DNA of 34,321 nucleotides from Lachnospiraceae bacterium (GCA_024684675.1 JAIKWO010000010.1:1-34321); one strand, 5' to 3'. Shown: positions 8,192 to 17,634, counted from the stretch's first letter. Numbers and translations: made by a program. Notes: generated by a model from the sequence alone, not told the origin.

Positions 8192-8899
8192 ATGGAAGAC
8201 CACAGCGTGATCCTGATCATGGACAATGAATCCGCAAAAGCCGAATATGCGTGTGCTCAATCGGACTTGCACGAATGTATTCTCGCAGGATCGCTTAAAG
8301 AAGCAAAGAACCTTTGTAAAAAGACCTGCCCGATCCTGATCTTTCTGTTCGATACACTGAATAGTGATGATCCGCTCGATGTTCTTTCGGAACTTCAAGA
8401 TGATTCGGATCTTTCCGATATCCCGATCGTGATGATCATGGATCATAAGCCGGAGCGGTCTGAGGAGATGCAGATCTATGGTGCAGGTGCTTCAAAGATA
8501 CTTGTCAGGCCGTTTACGAAGGAGACGTTTTCGAATCTTGTCTCCGAACTGACACGCAAGAAGACGGGATGCTACATTGATGAAGATGCGGCGATCGCAT
8601 ATTGTGGCGCATACGATGTCTTTAAAGAGGTGGCAACGACTTTTATCACGATCTGGCCGTCGGATCGGGCCAAGATCGCAGCAGCATGCGAACGCGAGGA
8701 TCTGAAGGATTATACGATCCGCGTGCATGCGCTTAAGAATGCCGCGAAAGTGGTCGGCGCGCTCCGTTTGTCGGAAGAGGCTGCGCGCATGGAGCAAAGC
8801 GGCAAGGCCGGAGCTTTTGGCAAGATTGAGGCATATACGCCGGCGCTTCTTGCGCTTTTTGATAAAAGTGCGGAAGAACTGAAAGGAATTGTTACATGA
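8192..8899 (+). CDS. Receiver-like domain fused to Hpt domain
   Basis: REC-like N-terminus (VILIMDNE...FLFD...LVRPF) and Hpt motif VHALKNAAKVVGALRL; ATG 8192 with GGAGGAG. Confidence 0.75.
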   Translation: MEDHSVILIMDNESAKAEYACAQSDLHECILAGSLKEAKNLCKKTCPILIFLFDTLNSDDPLDVLSELQDDSDLSDIPIVMIMDHKPERSEEMQIYGAGASKILVRPFTKETFSNLVSELTRKKTGCYIDEDAAIAYCGAYDVFKEVATTFITIWPSDRAKIAAACEREDLKDYTIRVHALKNAAKVVGALRLSEEAARMEQSGKAGAFGKIEAYTPALLALFDKSAEELKGIVT

Positions 8900-10248
8900 A
8901 GAAGTCTTATGAAATCGATATGTGCGAGGGGCCGATCTTCAGCAAAGTGCTGATTTTTACGGTTCCTCTCATTTTGTCCAGTATATTGCAGCTTTTGTTT
9001 AATGCGGCGGATGTGATCGTCGTGGGCAGATACGACGGGCAGCAGTCTCTTGCGGCCGTAGGATCGACGAGTTCTCTGACGAATCTTCTGATCAGCTTTT
9101 TTATGGGGTTGTCCGTCGGAGCAAATGTGCTCGTTGCCAGATATATCGGCGCCAGGAATGACAGGGAAGTATCGGATACCGTGCATACCGCGATCGCGAT
9201 TTCGCTGGCAGGCGGTGTGCTGATCGGCCTGATCGGCATTCTTTTTGCGTATCCGCTTTTAAATCTGATGGATACGCCTGCGGATGTCATCGATAAGTCA
9301 GCCCTTTATATGCGCGTATATTTTGTCGGTATGCCGGTGATCCTGCTCTACAATTTCGGCAGTGCGATCCTTCGTGCAATCGGTGATACGAGGCGGCCGC
9401 TTTATTATCTGGCGATCGCCGGTGTGCTCAACGTTTGCATGAATCTGCTTTTTGTTATTGTATTTCACATGGGCGTAGCGGGTGTGGCGCTCGCAACCGT
9501 GCTGTCGCAGTGCCTTTCGGCGTATCTTGTGATTCGCTGCCTGCAGAAAAGTGAGGGGAGTTATAAACTGTATCTGTCCCGGATCCATATCAATTTCGGG
9601 AAGCTTTTGAAGATCGCTCATATTGGGCTGCCGGCGGGCTTGCAGGGCTCTCTTTTTTCCATCTCCAACGTTTTGATCCAGTCATCTGTCAACTCATTCG
9701 GATCGATCGCGATGGCAGGCAACACGGCGAGCTCCAATGCGGAGGGTTTTATCTATGTCTCGATGAACGCGGTACACCATACATCGACCGTGTTTGTGAG
9801 TCAGAACCTCGGCGGTATGAAGTGGAAGCGGATCGACCGGGTCGTTGTGGAGTGTTTCCTTCTGGCGGCCGGGATCGGGATCTTCCTAGGGTGTCTGGCA
9901 ACCTTCTTTGGTGAAAGTATTTTGGGGCTTTATTCCGAGGATGCAAAGGTTATTTCGTTTGGAATTCTGCGTCTTACCATCATTGCACTTACGTATTTCC
10001 TTTGCGGTACGATGGATGTCATGGTCGGCGCGATGCGCGGCCTCGGCTACGCAGTGCTTCCGATGATCGTCTCCCTGACAGGTGCATGTCTTTTCCGCGT
10101 GATCTGGATCTTTACTGTATTTCGTGCGGATCACTCGCTGCAGACGCTTTACTATTCGTATCCGATCTCGTGGGGATTGACCACTTTGGTCCATGTAATC
10201 TGTTTTGTCATTGTGAGAAAACGGCTTCGAGCCAAATTGAGCATGTAG
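8896..10248 (+). CDS. MATE family multidrug/toxin exporter
   Basis: 12-TM pattern, PLILSSILQLLFNAADVIVVGRY, AIGDTRRPLYYL; ATGA overlap with upstream gene. Confidence 0.92.
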   Translation: MKKSYEIDMCEGPIFSKVLIFTVPLILSSILQLLFNAADVIVVGRYDGQQSLAAVGSTSSLTNLLISFFMGLSVGANVLVARYIGARNDREVSDTVHTAIAISLAGGVLIGLIGILFAYPLLNLMDTPADVIDKSALYMRVYFVGMPVILLYNFGSAILRAIGDTRRPLYYLAIAGVLNVCMNLLFVIVFHMGVAGVALATVLSQCLSAYLVIRCLQKSEGSYKLYLSRIHINFGKLLKIAHIGLPAGLQGSLFSISNVLIQSSVNSFGSIAMAGNTASSNAEGFIYVSMNAVHHTSTVFVSQNLGGMKWKRIDRVVVECFLLAAGIGIFLGCLATFFGESILGLYSEDAKVISFGILRLTIIALTYFLCGTMDVMVGAMRGLGYAVLPMIVSLTGACLFRVIWIFTVFRADHSLQTLYYSYPISWGLTTLVHVICFVIVRKRLRAKLSM

Positions 10249-10287
10249 GACACACAATTTTCACAAAATAAACAAAAAGTGTACACG

Positions 10288-10328
10288 AACCTCCTGTATG
10301 ATACATAATGAGTATAGGAGGTTTTTTT
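10288..10328 (+). terminator. Terminator-like hairpin containing the Shine-Dalgarno of the next gene
   Basis: AACCTCCTGTAT (10288-10299) pairs with GTATAGGAGGTT (10312-10323), 12 bp with two G-U wobbles, followed by T run 10322-10328; GGAGG of the RBS lies in the 3' arm; ATG at 10329. Confidence 0.6.
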
Positions 10329-11963
10329 ATGCCCGATGTAGCGAACAGGGACGAGGAGATCATTCTGCATCCCGTAAACAAAAAGAAACGCATTCTGATC
10401 GCAATCTGCGTATTGATCCTGCTTGGCGGGATCGGTGCGGCGGTATGGTTTTTCTTTTTTCGAGAGTTCAAAATGCCGGAACCGGAAATTCCGGTGCAGC
10501 TGCAAGGTCGCACAGATCTGGTGGCGGCGACCGGAACGACGATGGAAGGCGTGACCGATATCACGGTTGATACAACGTTTTTACAGACTGACCTGATCGT
10601 GGATGAGGTTTTTGTATCGGACGAGTCGGAAGTGCAGAAAGGGGATAAGGTCCTTACGATTACCGATACTTCCTATAAGGCTGCCTCAAGGGAGCTGGAG
10701 CGTGCTGAGCTGGACGCAGGACTCGCTTACAGGCAGGGACTGATCGACTATGAGACCAAGAAACTTGAGGCAAAAGAAACCTATGACAAGAGCCTGGTCG
10801 AGGCAGAACTGGCTGAGACGACGATGAATGATGCGATCGCGGTGGCAGAGATCAGTGTTCAAAAAGCGGAAAAAGAGTTAAAGGACGCGAATAAGCTTCT
10901 GGAGGAGTATCAGTCCGCAGTTGACGATAACTATTACTATACGAAATATGAAGTGGATCGGAAGAAATCCGATTATGAGAAAAACTTGCAGGATTTCTTC
11001 GATAAGCTTGAAGACTGGGGCTATGAGCTGGATGACGGCGATACATCGGCGGAAGGGTATGAATATGACCCCGATAATTTTACGATTGTCGGCGCGAAGA
11101 AGAAAGGCATGTCGATCGCGGAGAGCGGTGACGGCGAAGAGACGGTTCTGCAGCTTTTAAAGGACGAATACCAGAAGAATAAGGACGAATATGACGATGC
11201 GCTTGAAGATGCCGAGGCGGCGACCGAAAAGGCAAGAGCAGGACTGAGTGCGGCGCAGGATGATGCTGCACTAAAGACACTTGCGCTCGAAGAGGCAAAG
11301 ATCAAGCTTGAAAAAGATAAGACGGAAGCTGCAAACAAGAAGGCGGAATCCGAGGAAGAAGGAAAGCGCGCAAAGGCGACGTACGACCAGACGATCAAGA
11401 AGCTGGATGAAGATCTGAAGATCCTCAATGATGCGCAGGATGAGGCAACGGAGAACAGAGCGTATTTTGCCGGTCTATTCGAAGACGGCGCGATCTATAC
11501 CAAGAATGCGGGAACGATCATGTACATTGATGCGGCGGCAGGGAAGAAACTGGCCAGCGGCTTTCTGATGGCGTACACCAACACGGATACGCTCAGTGTG
11601 CATGCTTCGGTGGATCAGACGGATATCGCGAAGCTTAATGTCGGTGATACCGCAACCATTGTTCTGGAAGGAAAGGATCCGCTTACAGGCAAGATTAAGG
11701 CGATTGATCCTGTTTCAAAATCCGATTCCAAGGCGTCTGTATCATATAACGTGACGGTTGAAATGGAAGCCGGCGACGCAGATGTCGATTCCAATATGAC
11801 GGCGACCGTTTATTTTGGTATTGATGCGGATGAATACAACAAGATAATGGCAGAATCCGGCGAAGATGCTCTGATGATCTCGTCACCGGAAGGTGAGGGC
11901 GGCAGGCGCGGCGGCAGACCGAGCGGCGGACCGTCCGGGATGCCGGGAGGAGCAAGGCCATGA
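10329..11963 (+). CDS. Membrane-fusion/adaptor protein 1 (HlyD/MacA/YknX-like) of ABC exporter
   Basis: N-terminal TM, lipoyl-like half motif (VDEVFVSDESEVQKGDKVLTITD), long coiled coil, beta-barrel (LSVHASVDQTDIAKLNVGDTATIV). Confidence 0.85.
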   Translation: MPDVANRDEEIILHPVNKKKRILIAICVLILLGGIGAAVWFFFFREFKMPEPEIPVQLQGRTDLVAATGTTMEGVTDITVDTTFLQTDLIVDEVFVSDESEVQKGDKVLTITDTSYKAASRELERAELDAGLAYRQGLIDYETKKLEAKETYDKSLVEAELAETTMNDAIAVAEISVQKAEKELKDANKLLEEYQSAVDDNYYYTKYEVDRKKSDYEKNLQDFFDKLEDWGYELDDGDTSAEGYEYDPDNFTIVGAKKKGMSIAESGDGEETVLQLLKDEYQKNKDEYDDALEDAEAATEKARAGLSAAQDDAALKTLALEEAKIKLEKDKTEAANKKAESEEEGKRAKATYDQTIKKLDEDLKILNDAQDEATENRAYFAGLFEDGAIYTKNAGTIMYIDAAAGKKLASGFLMAYTNTDTLSVHASVDQTDIAKLNVGDTATIVLEGKDPLTGKIKAIDPVSKSDSKASVSYNVTVEMEAGDADVDSNMTATVYFGIDADEYNKIMAESGEDALMISSPEGEGGRRGGRPSGGPSGMPGGARP

Positions 11964-13660
11964 TGAAAATGACGCGTAAAAAGAAAAGAATACTCCTGGT
12001 TCTGGCTGCGCTTTGCGTTGCGATCTGCGGTGCGGTCTATACATTGACAACACGTGATGATACGGAAGAAGAGAAGTATATCTATAAAGAAACGCCTGTC
12101 GAGCACGGCGTTTTGATGCAGGGCATTCAGGAAAGCGGCAGCGTGACGTTGACATACAAATCGCAGAAATGCGAAGTCGAGATCAATGCGGATGACGACT
12201 CGAAGAAAAGTAGCAGCGATGATGATGACGAAGACAAGACGCTAAAGGTTGAGAAAATCTTTGTGACGCAGGGGCAGCGTATCAAAAAGGGCGATCAGCT
12301 CATGAAGCTTACTTCTCAAAGTGTACACAGCATCAGACGAAATATCCGTGCGGATAAGGCAGATGCTGAGCTTTCCGTCACGAATCTGGAGAATGAGCTG
12401 GCGACGCTTCGGGTTACCGCAAAGGGGCAGTACGATACGGATGTGCAGGACGGTACGTATGCCCAAGCGCAATATGATATTGACGTGAATCAGGTCACGC
12501 TGGAGATATCTGCGCTGCAGGATTCCGTGGCAGTCCTTGCCGATGAGATCAAATCGATAGAGAGAGAACTGGAGGATGGCTGGGAAGACTATCAGGATCT
12601 GAAAGAAGATTTCGAAAAATACGAGAGACGTTACTATAACTGGGATCCGGAGAATTTATACGATTACATCCCGCTTCGCGAGAACTACATTTCTTATCGG
12701 GATAAGTATACAAAGGAAACGAGATCCCGTGCCGATAAGCGGAAGGAGATTGAGAGAAAGCAGCAGGAACTCGCAAAGAAGCAGGCGGATATCGACAGAC
12801 TGATAGGTCAGACGGATCGTAAGCTTTTAGATGCGAAGCAGACTTTTGATGCGGCGAACCTGGCGGGCAGCATGGCATCCGATGTGTATGCATACTCTAT
12901 CAAATCACTTGAAGAGAAAATCAAGAAGGCACGCGAGACGCTGGAAGAAAAAGAGGAGATCCTGACAGACTTTGACAACTTTGTAGGAGACGACGGCATT
13001 GTCTATGCGGAAGCTGATGGAATGATTCTGGAAGTGCTTCTTTTGGAGGGCGATACCGTTAAGGAAAATACGCCGCTTATCAATTATACGGATGACGAAA
13101 GCTTCTCATTGTCAGTGGATGTGTCGGAAGAAGATATTGCCGGCGTGAAAGTCGGTGACAGTGTTTCGGTTGTCTTTACAGCATATCCGGACGAGACATT
13201 CCATGGCAATGTAAAAGCGATTAAGACGACGGAACCTTCGTCTGACATGGCGACGGTCAGCTTCCCCGTTACGATCTCCATAGAAGGCGATACATCCAAG
13301 CTTTACGGCGGCATGAGCGGTAATGTTACCTTTATCACGGACAAATCCGAAGAGGTCGACTATGTGTCGCGCAAGGCGATCGTCAAAGGCGATGATAAAA
13401 AGACATATGTCTATATTAAAAACGAGAACGGTGACATGGAACTCATCCCTGTTGAGACAGGCTTTACGGATGGTGTAAATGTACAGATCGTGTCAGGTTT
13501 ATCGAAAGGGGATACGGTCTATATCGCAAGCAAAGTCAGTGAAAGCGAAGCCTCTTTAAAAGACGGAGAGACGCCGAACGACGCTCCCGATGTGAACTTG
13601 GGGGATATGAAGGAATTTGGTAATGAAGAGATCAATTTCAGCAAAAATTTTGCGCCATAA
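11960..13660 (+). CDS. Membrane-fusion/adaptor protein 2
   Basis: N-terminal TM, VEKIFVTQGQRIKKGDQLMKL, coiled coil, FSLSVDVSEEDIAGVKVGDSVSVVFTAYP. Confidence 0.85.
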   Translation: MMKMTRKKKRILLVLAALCVAICGAVYTLTTRDDTEEEKYIYKETPVEHGVLMQGIQESGSVTLTYKSQKCEVEINADDDSKKSSSDDDDEDKTLKVEKIFVTQGQRIKKGDQLMKLTSQSVHSIRRNIRADKADAELSVTNLENELATLRVTAKGQYDTDVQDGTYAQAQYDIDVNQVTLEISALQDSVAVLADEIKSIERELEDGWEDYQDLKEDFEKYERRYYNWDPENLYDYIPLRENYISYRDKYTKETRSRADKRKEIERKQQELAKKQADIDRLIGQTDRKLLDAKQTFDAANLAGSMASDVYAYSIKSLEEKIKKARETLEEKEEILTDFDNFVGDDGIVYAEADGMILEVLLLEGDTVKENTPLINYTDDESFSLSVDVSEEDIAGVKVGDSVSVVFTAYPDETFHGNVKAIKTTEPSSDMATVSFPVTISIEGDTSKLYGGMSGNVTFITDKSEEVDYVSRKAIVKGDDKKTYVYIKNENGDMELIPVETGFTDGVNVQIVSGLSKGDTVYIASKVSESEASLKDGETPNDAPDVNLGDMKEFGNEEINFSKNFAP

Positions 13661-15242
13661 AAAAGCGTGCATTATCACCGGATCGACGCTGGTCCTTGTG
13701 CTAGCTTTGGGCGGGATCGGATACGGAATTTACAGGAGTGGATCTGATGATGAAGGGGTCTATAAGGAGACAACGGTCGAATACGGACCATTGACAGTCG
13801 GCGTGACAGAAGACGGAACTGTCAAAGTCGGAACCATTCAACAAAAATTTGACCTCGATATCAGTAAGTATGCAGCCGAGAATGACTGGTTCAGTGGCTG
13901 GTACGGCGGATTTGATGTGGAGGAAGCTTCTTCCAATAAAAGCGGCAGAACGCTTGATGTCGAGGAAGTCTATGTGAATGTCGGGCAGCAGCTTAAGAAA
14001 GGCGATCCGCTCTTCAAAGTGAGCGGGGAAAGTACCGAGACGATCCGAGCGGAACTTGTATCCGATGAAGAGAGTGCCGCAGTTACCTATGAAAAGCTCC
14101 TCGTAGAGCAGAAAAAGACGCAACTTGAAGCAAAACAGGAATATGACAAGAATGTCACCTACGGAAAAGCAGCTGATGCAGAGTACGAGGAAACCGTTTA
14201 CGATCTGCAGAAAAAAGTAGACGATGCCCTGGAGGATTATACGGATGCGGTCGAGGAGCTCTGTGAAATGCAGGAGGACTATGACAGACTCAAGGCTGAT
14301 TATCCAAAGGCGCAGGCTTACTTAGAGGAAGCAGAAGCCGCCCTGCAGTTCGACCAGACGACATATTGGAATCTGAAGAATGCGGATCTTCGAAAGACTG
14401 CAAAGGAACGCGTGGATTCCGAGAAGGATGCGATCGAAGAATACGAAGACAAGATCAAAGAGCAGAATCAAAAGCTGACACAGCTTAAGAGTGATTATGA
14501 CGATGCTGTTAAAGAGCTGGCAACCGGAAAAGCGTCGGCAGAGAATACAAAAGAGAAGCGGATATTTCAGTTAAACAGTGCGGCCGAGATCTACAGTATC
14601 GCGACGGACAAGATCGAATACAATGCGAAGGTTGCCAGAGAAGATCTGGAAGATGCGGGCGAAAAGCTTGATAAATTCGATACTTATATCAAAGACAATA
14701 TTGTCAGTGCAGAATATGACGGTGTTGTCACAACGGTCAGCTTATCAAAAGGCGATACCGTCCAGAAAGATACGGCAATCGTAATCCTCAACAATTACGA
14801 TGACATCATCGTGAAGGTAGATGTGGATGACGAGACGGTAGGAAATCTGAAAGTCGGAATCCCTGTTAAACTGCAGTTCCCGTCTGCACCGGACGGAAAC
14901 TTTACCGGAACCGTTTCCAAAATCGGTGATTCAACGATCAAGGATAATTCCGTTACCTATGCGATCGAGATCGCGGTATCAGGCGATGTGGCGGGACTTT
15001 ACGGTGGTATGACGGCGAATGTTACGTTTGTTACGAGGGAGACCGAAGCGGTCACTTATGTATCCAACAGAGCGATCATTCGTGAAGGCACAAAGAGTTA
15101 TGTGAAGATCAAAGATGCATCCGGAAAGATCACCAAACAGGAAGTCGTGACGGGCTTTTCGGACGGAAACAACGTGGAAATCAAGGAAGGACTGAAGAAA
15201 GGTGATACGGTCCTGATCGAAGGTAAGGTAAAAAGCGCATGA
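13623..15242 (+). CDS. Membrane-fusion/adaptor protein 3
   Basis: N-terminal TM, VEEVYVNVGQQLKKGDPLFKV, coiled coil, IIVKVDVDDETVGNLKVGIPVKLQFPS; start moved to ATG 13623 (AAGGA upstream), 38-nt overlap with the preceding gene. Confidence 0.83.
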   Translation: MKRSISAKILRHKKACIITGSTLVLVLALGGIGYGIYRSGSDDEGVYKETTVEYGPLTVGVTEDGTVKVGTIQQKFDLDISKYAAENDWFSGWYGGFDVEEASSNKSGRTLDVEEVYVNVGQQLKKGDPLFKVSGESTETIRAELVSDEESAAVTYEKLLVEQKKTQLEAKQEYDKNVTYGKAADAEYEETVYDLQKKVDDALEDYTDAVEELCEMQEDYDRLKADYPKAQAYLEEAEAALQFDQTTYWNLKNADLRKTAKERVDSEKDAIEEYEDKIKEQNQKLTQLKSDYDDAVKELATGKASAENTKEKRIFQLNSAAEIYSIATDKIEYNAKVAREDLEDAGEKLDKFDTYIKDNIVSAEYDGVVTTVSLSKGDTVQKDTAIVILNNYDDIIVKVDVDDETVGNLKVGIPVKLQFPSAPDGNFTGTVSKIGDSTIKDNSVTYAIEIAVSGDVAGLYGGMTANVTFVTRETEAVTYVSNRAIIREGTKSYVKIKDASGKITKQEVVTGFSDGNNVEIKEGLKKGDTVLIEGKVKSA

Positions 15243-16489
15243 GAATCTCGGAAATTTTCAGACTGGTATGGCTGAACCTTGTGCAGAACAAATCCAAGGT
15301 GATCCTGACGTCCATCGGTATTGTTGCCGGCAGCGCCACGATCATGATGGTGTTGGCGATCGGTCGGGGCGGTCAGATGGAAGTCGCGGAACAGTTTAAG
15401 AATCTGAATGCCGGTGCTGTGGATGTTTCCTATGAGTCTTCGGGTGATTCGGGAAGGGGCGGCGGCCCGGGCGGCTTTTTCATGTTCGGTTTCGGCCAGC
15501 GGGGGCGTGATCGAAATCAGGTAACGCTGAAAGAATCGGATATGGAAGATATTACGCTTTTTGTGCCGGGGCTTTCGGATGCCACGATCTCTTTTTCCAC
15601 GAATGCGGATGTAGAGGGCGGAACACTTGATTCGTCGTCTTCTTATACGATTGCCGGCGTAAAGCCGAATTATGCGGATCTAAGTAACTTAACGCTTGCG
15701 ATCGGGGACTTTTTAACGGAGGAGAACGAAGAAGGCAAAGAGAAAGTGTGCGTGCTTGGGTCGCGTGCGGCAAAGGAGATCTTCGGATCGGCATATGATG
15801 CCTATGACGGAACCGTTTACATTGACAGCCGACCTTACAGTGTTGCAGGCGTGATCGGTGAGATGGGAACGGTCGCTTCGGGCATCAGTCCGGACGATGC
15901 GATCTTCATTCCTTATGCAACCGGCATTAAATACCTGACAGGGTCGGATGTGAGCCCGACGATCACCGCGATCGCGGAGGATGTTGATAACGTACCGGTC
16001 ATAAAAGAGTATATTGCGGACACGCTCGCAGGCACATATCCGAATGCGGAATTTGAGATTTCAGATGCCGGATCTAAGATGGAAGCGGCGTCAAAATCCA
16101 ACGAAACTCTCCAACTTCTCCTGATCGCCATGGCTGCGATCGTATTTTTCGTCGGCGGTATCGGCATCATGAACGTCTTGTTTGTATCCGTTAAGGAGCG
16201 AACGAACGAGATCGGTATCTTAAAGGCGATCGGCTGCAGCAGGAAAGATATCCTGACCGAGTTTTTGCTTGAAGCGGCCTGCATCAGTTTTGTCGGAGCA
16301 ATCCTCGGCGTTTTGTTCGGTCTATGCATCACGCCGATCATAGAGAGTTTTTCGGTGCGCGTGGAGCTGACGGTGAGTGGGGCTGTTTTGTCCCTTCTGT
16401 TCGGTGTTTTAACCGGCAGTATCTTCGGATTCTATCCCGCGTATAAGGCATCAACGCTGATACCTGTTGTTGCCCTGAATCAGGAGTAG
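15239..16489 (+). CDS. MacB/FtsX-type ABC transporter permease
   Basis: N-terminal TM, large extracytoplasmic domain, three C-terminal TMs, VKERTNEIGILKAIGCSRKDILTEFLLEA. Confidence 0.92.
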   Translation: MRISEIFRLVWLNLVQNKSKVILTSIGIVAGSATIMMVLAIGRGGQMEVAEQFKNLNAGAVDVSYESSGDSGRGGGPGGFFMFGFGQRGRDRNQVTLKESDMEDITLFVPGLSDATISFSTNADVEGGTLDSSSSYTIAGVKPNYADLSNLTLAIGDFLTEENEEGKEKVCVLGSRAAKEIFGSAYDAYDGTVYIDSRPYSVAGVIGEMGTVASGISPDDAIFIPYATGIKYLTGSDVSPTITAIAEDVDNVPVIKEYIADTLAGTYPNAEFEISDAGSKMEAASKSNETLQLLLIAMAAIVFFVGGIGIMNVLFVSVKERTNEIGILKAIGCSRKDILTEFLLEAACISFVGAILGVLFGLCITPIIESFSVRVELTVSGAVLSLLFGVLTGSIFGFYPAYKASTLIPVVALNQE

Positions 16490-16496
16490 ACAGTCA

Positions 16497-16928
16497 ATGG
16501 ATAATTATATCGTTCAGAATAAGAAAAAAAGAAAACGCAAAGCACTGATCGTACTTCTTGTGCTCTTTTTGATCGCGCTTTTGGGCGGCGGGATCTTTTG
16601 GCATCAAAAGCGTGCGCAGGAAGCAGAAGCCAATGCGAATGCGGAGTCGGCCGTCAAGTTGCAAAAGAACCAGAGCTGGAAATACTATCGGATCAATGAG
16701 ATCATCGGCAACGAAGTAAAAGCGGTCGAAATTGAAGAGGACGGCAAAGAAATAGGAGAGGAAAAGATTTTTCTCATACCTGTTGGAACGGAAGTGATCA
16801 CAAGCATTCAGAGTGTGACCACATTTACGAGGCTTTCCGCAGGGAAAACGATCCATTGCCTGATGCAAGAGACGGATGATGCTGCATCGTCCGAGATCGT
16901 GAAGATATGGATCGTGGAAGATGAATGA
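16497..16928 (+). CDS. Small single-TM protein encoded between permease and ATPase
   Basis: Basic N-terminus KKKRKRK then one TM (ALIVLLVLFLIALLGGGIFW), ~100-aa external domain; good spacing in operon. Confidence 0.75.
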   Translation: MDNYIVQNKKKRKRKALIVLLVLFLIALLGGGIFWHQKRAQEAEANANAESAVKLQKNQSWKYYRINEIIGNEVKAVEIEEDGKEIGEEKIFLIPVGTEVITSIQSVTTFTRLSAGKTIHCLMQETDDAASSEIVKIWIVEDE

Positions 16929-16938
16929 TAGGAGACAT

Positions 16939-17634
16939 ATGGAAGAAGAATATCTGATTTCAATCCATCATATGAATAAAGGATACATGATCGGTGAAGA
17001 AAAGGTGCCTGTTTTAAAAGATATCAATTTTCGGGTAAAGCGCGGGGAATACGTGGCGATCCTCGGACCTTCCGGTTCCGGTAAGACGACGCTGATGAAT
17101 GTCATTGGCTGCATGGACATTATGGATAGTGGCGAATACTACCTGTCAGGACTTCCGATCCACGAGACGGATGAAGAGGATTTGACGGAGGTACGTAATC
17201 GGGAGATTGGTTTTATCTTCCAGAATTATCAGCTGATCCCGTCATACAATGTCATGCAGAACATCATCATGCCACTTGTAATTCGTGGGATGAGTCATCG
17301 GGAGGCCGAAGAGAAAAGCATCGAGACGATCAAGATGCTCGGGCTCGGGCATAGGCTTGCGCACAGACCGAACGAACTGTCCGGTGGACAAAAGCAGCGT
17401 GTGTCGATCGCACGTGCGCTTGTCGGACAGCCTGCGCTCCTATTGGCGGATGAGCCGACCGGTGCACTCGATCAGTCGAGTGGTAAAGATGTACTGCGGC
17501 TCTTCGGTGAACTGAATGATATGGGACACACGATCGTTATGATTACGCATGATCTGACGGTAGCAAAGGCGGCAAAACGCATCGTTCATATCATTGACGG
17601 TGTTCTTTCCGAAGAAACCGAAAAAGATACTTGA
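16939..17634 (+). CDS. ABC transporter ATPase (MacB/LolD-like)
   Basis: Walker A GPSGSGKTT, signature LSGGQKQRVSIARAL, Walker B LLLADEPTGALD; ATG 16939 with AGGAG. Confidence 0.95.
   Translation: MEEEYLISIHHMNKGYMIGEEKVPVLKDINFRVKRGEYVAILGPSGSGKTTLMNVIGCMDIMDSGEYYLSGLPIHETDEEDLTEVRNREIGFIFQNYQLIPSYNVMQNIIMPLVIRGMSHREAEEKSIETIKMLGLGHRLAHRPNELSGGQKQRVSIARALVGQPALLLADEPTGALDQSSGKDVLRLFGELNDMGHTIVMITHDLTVAKAAKRIVHIIDGVLSEETEKDT

Follow-up and report, generated by a model that had tools for sequence, protein, structure and literature searches.

Three divergent adaptors on one MacB-type exporter of Lachnospiraceae: a candidate mixed adaptor ring

The window, a 34,321-nucleotide stretch of DNA from a Lachnospiraceae bacterium, carries an operon in which three divergent adaptor genes precede the permease and ATPase genes of a MacB-type ABC exporter. 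Judged from gene content and conservation, this three-adaptor exporter of gut Lachnospiraceae is a real, conserved and unusual form of a known pump type, and the three adaptors, designated MFP1, MFP2 and MFP3, probably share one mixed hexameric tube on a single exporter of a single-membrane cell. The usual adaptor ring is composed of six copies of one protein seated on a transporter of two- or three-fold symmetry. Single-adaptor MacB-type pumps, the two-adaptor TriABC pump and a fused double adaptor are already known (PMC4338810, PMC8277102), and the role of adaptors in bacteria that lack an outer membrane has openly been called a knowledge gap (PMC4338810, PMC5985334). The open literature searched, which misses most subscription papers, yielded no account of a transporter with three adaptors.

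The operon and its products

Six plus-strand genes follow one another in the order MFP1 (10329..11963), MFP2 (11960..13660), MFP3 (13623..15242), permease (15239..16489), small membrane protein (16497..16928) and ATPase (16921..17634). MFP1 starts at the ATG at 10329, which is preceded by seven T residues and, before these, by a Shine-Dalgarno sequence, AGGAGG, at 10316-10321. Overlaps join MFP1 to MFP2 (4 nt), MFP2 to MFP3 (38 nt), MFP3 to the permease gene (4 nt) and the small-protein gene to the ATPase gene (8 nt); the open reading frames and the overlaps thus uphold, at the positions claimed, the sequence-only reading of the region as one operon of three adaptor genes, a permease, a small transmembrane protein and an ATPase. 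Among the loci listed, 4-nt overlaps occur at 15, 12 and 22 of the 35-38 adaptor/permease junctions.

The permease, which has no fused ATPase, scores above the cut-offs for both MacB_PCD (84.9 bits) and FtsX (72.3 bits), and matches the solved MacB structures 5lil (8.6e-45) and the Spr0693-0695-type 5xu1 (2.2e-27). The ATPase scores 113.7 bits against ABC_tran, with MacB and LolD as its best NCBIfam relatives. The pair therefore has the parts of a MacB-type (mechanotransmission) exporter, namely a MacB core plus FtsX permease and a cognate MacB/LolD-type ATPase. It is not MacB sensu stricto, as the score against NCBIfam NF007826 is 158.8 bits (cut-off 966) and the ATPase is encoded by a separate gene.

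MFP1 is an HlyD-type adaptor by its match to the HlyD_3 profile (37.2 bits, cut-off 22.2). MFP2 and MFP3 score 60.9 and 54.0 bits against HlyD_D23 (cut-off 30) and also exceed the TIGR01730 cut-off, which places them with the MacA/RND-type adaptors. All of the adaptor hallmarks, a split lipoyl domain, a helical hairpin, a barrel and a membrane anchor, are present in each protein, as established for MFP1 by a structure model and HlyD_3 and for MFP2 and MFP3 by the profiles. A complete membrane-proximal (MP) domain is evident from sequence in MFP2 and MFP3; MFP1 has only a variable tail beyond the barrel, and the C-terminal half of its MP domain is missing. MFP2 and MFP3 are 31% identical over nearly their full length, MFP1 and MFP2 are 22% identical, and the alignment of MFP1 with MFP3 is only partial. 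With three adaptor genes, the operon departs from the one-adaptor-per-permease rule of the MacAB/YknXYZ-type pumps.

The small membrane protein is modelled with one N-terminal helix and an OB-fold-like beta barrel (pLDDT 88). It has no Yip1 match and does not have the four transmembrane segments of a YknW-like protein. The best solved match in a fold search is CusF (E 0.0056), too weak to assign. A linker accounts for the spread in length of the protein among orthologues, 124 to 508 residues; in the window, L040, L056 and L063, this linker is variable and often rich in Gly, Pro or Met, and the barrel core IPVGTxVxT..GTxTTF is constant. The protein is found in 28 of the 38 three-adaptor loci listed, with weak matches in some one-adaptor relatives, a pattern from which it is probably older than the extra adaptors, but dispensable.

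Distribution and ancestry of the three adaptors

A permease-based scan of genome contigs, which is not a census and in which many further loci end at contig edges, yielded at least 80 loci. The search suggested by the sequence-only reading, for three adaptor genes 5' of a MacB-like permease, found the order MFP1-MFP2-MFP3-permease in at least 37 other Lachnospiraceae-type loci (at least 38 with the window), so the arrangement reflects more than chance; all three adaptors are complete on the contig in at least 35 of these. The source genomes carry the label Lachnospiraceae or a less exact placement in Bacillota; Kineothrix alysoides and Butyrivibrio are among them. Within the same genus, 8/9 genomes have a close permease, as do 22/396 sampled genomes of the family, corresponding to 18/280 genera. 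Also among the matches listed are eight two-adaptor loci, from Roseburia and Eubacterium-like genomes, and 14 one-adaptor loci, from Oscillospiraceae, Christensenella, Dielma, Epulopiscium and two Propionibacteriaceae. Since two-adaptor relatives exist, three adaptors are no general need. In Roseburia sp. 831b, a two-adaptor version of the exporter (L114) resides on a 243-kb plasmid (NZ_CP135163.1) and, as in the window, has a MATE transporter gene before it.

A tree of 66 adaptors resolves MFP1, MFP2 and MFP3 as one clade each (100/100 support) and groups the upstream adaptor of the two-adaptor systems with MFP1 (98/96). A 131-row tree recovers the same groups, and neither tree fixes the branching order among MFP2, MFP3 and the downstream adaptor of the two-adaptor type. 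In the permease tree, the three-adaptor clade (support 98) and the two-adaptor clade (96) are joined at 99, with the one-adaptor types outside, and only two changes of adaptor number are needed. Stepwise growth from one to two to three adaptors fits this topology; its direction depends on the root, which was placed on Christensenella-type rows with long branches flagged.

Could the three genes simply be redundant or decaying tandem duplicates? Tandem paralogues do often arise by duplication, and a few broken operons exist, but on every other count this explanation fares so poorly that we regard it as highly improbable. The adaptors are ancient, separate clades: paralogues at the same locus are less alike (identity 0.23-0.28) than orthologues between genera (0.33-0.38). 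The dN/dS ratio, calculated only from pairs with unsaturated synonymous sites, is 0.06-0.2 in all three, which indicates that purifying selection acts on MFP1, MFP2 and MFP3 alike, and complete triplets persist in at least 35 loci. A recent local duplication with degraded copies, named earlier as the outcome that would undo the proposal, is thus contradicted, and the description of three divergent, non-redundant adaptors on one MacB-like permease/ATPase is sustained by the families, the separate clades and the selection. Distances of the three adaptors correlate at 0.93-0.95 across loci, a value that co-inheritance of the operon as a unit would by itself be expected to produce.

In the broken loci themselves, the permease is damaged or most of the adaptor block is gone, rather than a single dispensable adaptor. 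Where enough upstream sequence is available, the exceptions in the three-adaptor clade are L101, L039 and L092, some of which may be assembly errors. In L101 (Butyrivibrio sp. XPD2002, 9011-10753), MFP1 as far as its hairpin is fused by an in-frame deletion to the C-terminal portion of the permease, so that MFP2 and MFP3 are missing; either the operon is broken here or the assembly is in error. In L039, MFP3 is truncated with nothing upstream, and in L092 the permease is truncated and the adaptors are absent. A seemingly degraded MFP1 in G516, with three stops inside the match, was dismissed because the stops fall beyond the natural end of the protein. No intact operon with one adaptor lost was found among the three-adaptor loci listed; this retention is only consistent with each adaptor being required.

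Control region and neighbours

A promoter-region box conserved upstream of MFP1, ACACAnTTTTCACAnAATnAACA (10252..10274, plus strand), has one exact match in the source genome and no other there with fewer than three mismatches. With up to two mismatches allowed, the aligned loci have seven sites matching its core ahead of MFP1 where 0.29 would be expected, an optimistic comparison as the motif was chosen from those same loci. The sites lie within about 165 bp upstream of MFP1 in loci without an adjacent two-component system (the window, L041, L052, L054, L061, L063 and L072). By its sequence the box looks like an OmpR/PhoB-type activator site; in several loci its ACA ends recur at a spacing of roughly 11 bp, and downstream lies a TATAAT-like hexamer. 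Between the box and MFP1, a 13-bp RNA hairpin is predicted at 10287..10324 on the plus strand (-20.2 kcal/mol, z -3.05); it covers the AGGAGG of MFP1, is followed by the seven T residues, and is conserved in sequence in L061. The hairpin could act as an attenuator, terminate the MATE gene or serve the downstream TetR gene as an operator, and an Rfam search of the MFP1 leader gave no match. The MATE efflux gene (8896-10248) ends about 80 bp before MFP1, is kept in L061, and may share the exporter transcript.

No neighbour family is conserved across the 38 loci listed. A response regulator and histidine kinase lie within 2.5 kb upstream in eight of the loci listed, divergent in L042, L065, L066 and L068 and in the same direction in L047, L051, L059 and L060. 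In the window, L061 and L035, the operon is followed by a TetR gene. With a two-component system upstream in some loci and TetR downstream in others, control of the exporter appears to have been swapped.

A probable mixed adaptor ring

MacB-type pumps work as dimers, driving substrates from outside the cytoplasm into a tube of adaptors, and in Gram-positive bacteria the adaptors assemble into hexamers proposed to span the inner wall zone; hexameric tubes on a dimeric transporter are described for MacA and for the Gram-positive Spr0693 (PMC5985334, PMC5768738). That divergent adaptors are able to share one pump is established by TriA and TriB (PMC4338810, PMC13328181). In the mechanism we propose, the permease/ATPase dimer would act as the mechanotransmitter, collecting substrate at the membrane's outer face, and a tube jointly built by MFP1, MFP2 and MFP3 would carry it through the wall-side space. 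By analogy with the Gram-positive MacB-type pumps already described (YknWXYZ, Spr0693-0695) and in view of the linked regulators, the substrate is most likely an antimicrobial peptide or other amphiphile.

The sequence-only reading had left two options, a hetero-oligomeric ring or alternative adaptors on one MacB-like dimer, and the evidence favours the first on three grounds: the absence of adaptor loss from intact operons, the match in hairpin length, and the presence of the MacA ring-closing positions in all three adaptors. The hairpins of MFP2 (230 residues in the window) and MFP3 (228 residues) match in length at each locus; across orthologues, 228-248 and 228-236 residues, respectively, separate the lipoyl halves (about 115 per arm). 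The two lengths co-vary (Spearman 0.70, a raw value that includes ancestry), with the longest MFP3 hairpins in loci with long MFP2 hairpins, a correlation that shared ancestry alone could produce. No such correlation links the MFP1 hairpin to MFP2 or MFP3, the variable tip being part of the MFP1 length. MFP1 has a longer span from lipoyl to lipoyl, the excess being largely a tip block of 2-119 residues across orthologues. Its model (33-row alignment, mean pLDDT 80, pTM 0.50) has a transmembrane helix, the split lipoyl domain and barrel, and helices at residues 113-230 (with short breaks) and 268-383. These give 116-118 residues per arm, or about 170 Å predicted for helices of about 116 residues at 1.5 Å per residue; the tip loop (11043..11114, plus strand) is of low confidence and variable in length between orthologues. 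E231, Y276 and T293 of MacA have been described as ring-closing (PMC8277102). With few exceptions, the equivalents are Q, Y and T/S in MFP1 (34/34 Q, 33/34 Y), Q/E, Y and T in MFP2, and E/D, Y and T in MFP3.

The same residues would persist if the three adaptors instead made separate homo-hexamers on the shared permease, altering the substrate range or serving different conditions, and the unequal domain make-up of the adaptors, with MFP1 lacking half of the MP domain, might suit different partners. We consider such alternative adaptors unlikely: encoded in one operon by overlapping or nearly abutting genes, the three proteins are probably made together, and interchangeable parts should occasionally be lost, whereas no intact operon listed is without one and the MFP2 and MFP3 hairpins keep matching lengths at each locus.

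A distinct role for one adaptor, most plausibly MFP1, must also be weighed, with the ring built from only one or two of the proteins and the remaining one binding peptidoglycan, delivering substrate or recruiting the small OB-fold protein. Of the three adaptors, MFP1 diverges most; it also lacks the C-terminal half of the MP domain and has a flexible, variable tip; the nearest solved folds to its model are EmrA, described as having no MP domain (PMC4446572), and then MacA, and purified YknX binds peptidoglycan (PMC5985334). Yet MFP1 retains the barrel, the lipoyl domain and the ring-closing positions, and its hairpin arms are of the common length, so that we hold this division of labour to be rather improbable.

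For the mixed ring, the simplest arrangement would be (MFP1-MFP2-MFP3)x2, two-fold like the permease dimer. A six-fold ring on a two-fold permease presents three unlike positions, and we infer that three adaptors can therefore each fit one. With such an order, the mismatch in symmetry between MacA6 and MacB2 would disappear. MFP1 would be the odd member, with half of its MP domain missing and a floppy hairpin tip, and MFP2 and MFP3 the rigid members contacting the transporter. We advance only tentatively, as somewhat less than an even prospect, this ordered 2:2:2 hetero-hexamer, with adaptor types matching the unlike positions and arising by successive duplications that took the system from one adaptor type to two and then to three. 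In this pump family, versions with one, two and three adaptors occur naturally, and their adaptors can be separately labelled, deleted or placed, making testable both the job of each ring position and how a ring of one subunit turns into an obligately mixed one.

Comparison with known systems

The exporter resembles MacAB-TolC of E. coli in its permease, which combines the MacB periplasmic core with FtsX and matches solved MacB, and in its MacA-like MFP2 and MFP3. MacAB-TolC has one adaptor and an ATPase fused to MacB, whereas here the ATPase is separate and a search of the source genome (83% complete) for a TolC-type outer-membrane factor gave nothing above the cut-off, in agreement with the earlier view of a host without TolC. 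YknWXYZ of Bacillus is closer in several respects, with a single-membrane host, separate permease and ATPase, a MacA-like adaptor and an extra membrane protein (PMC4338810, PMC8277102), but it has one adaptor, and YknW has four transmembrane segments of the Yip1 type in place of one helix and an OB-like barrel. Spr0693-0694-0695 of Streptococcus pneumoniae is likewise a Gram-positive MacAB-like pump whose adaptor hexamer sits on a dimeric transporter; it too has one adaptor, with a traced hairpin barrel of 56 Å in contrast to the length predicted for the MFP1 helices, and the modelled pump reaches 154 Å from the membrane (PMC5768738).

Two systems with more than one adaptor complete the comparison. 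DSY0927 of Desulfitobacterium hafniense, from the ABC-type system of a Firmicute, combines an adaptor that resembles the RND type with another that does not (PMC4338810), but both are fused in one polypeptide and there is no third. TriABC-OpmH of Pseudomonas aeruginosa also places divergent adaptors on one transporter, TriA and TriB being 36% identical and both needed (PMC4338810); it differs in having an RND trimer, an outer-membrane channel and two adaptors, where the present system has an ABC permease. TriA and TriB on the RND trimer are thus the two-type counterpart of the three types on a dimer, and if the ordered ring is correct, the number of adaptor types would equal the number of unlike positions that the transporter presents, three on the dimer here and two on the trimer in TriABC.
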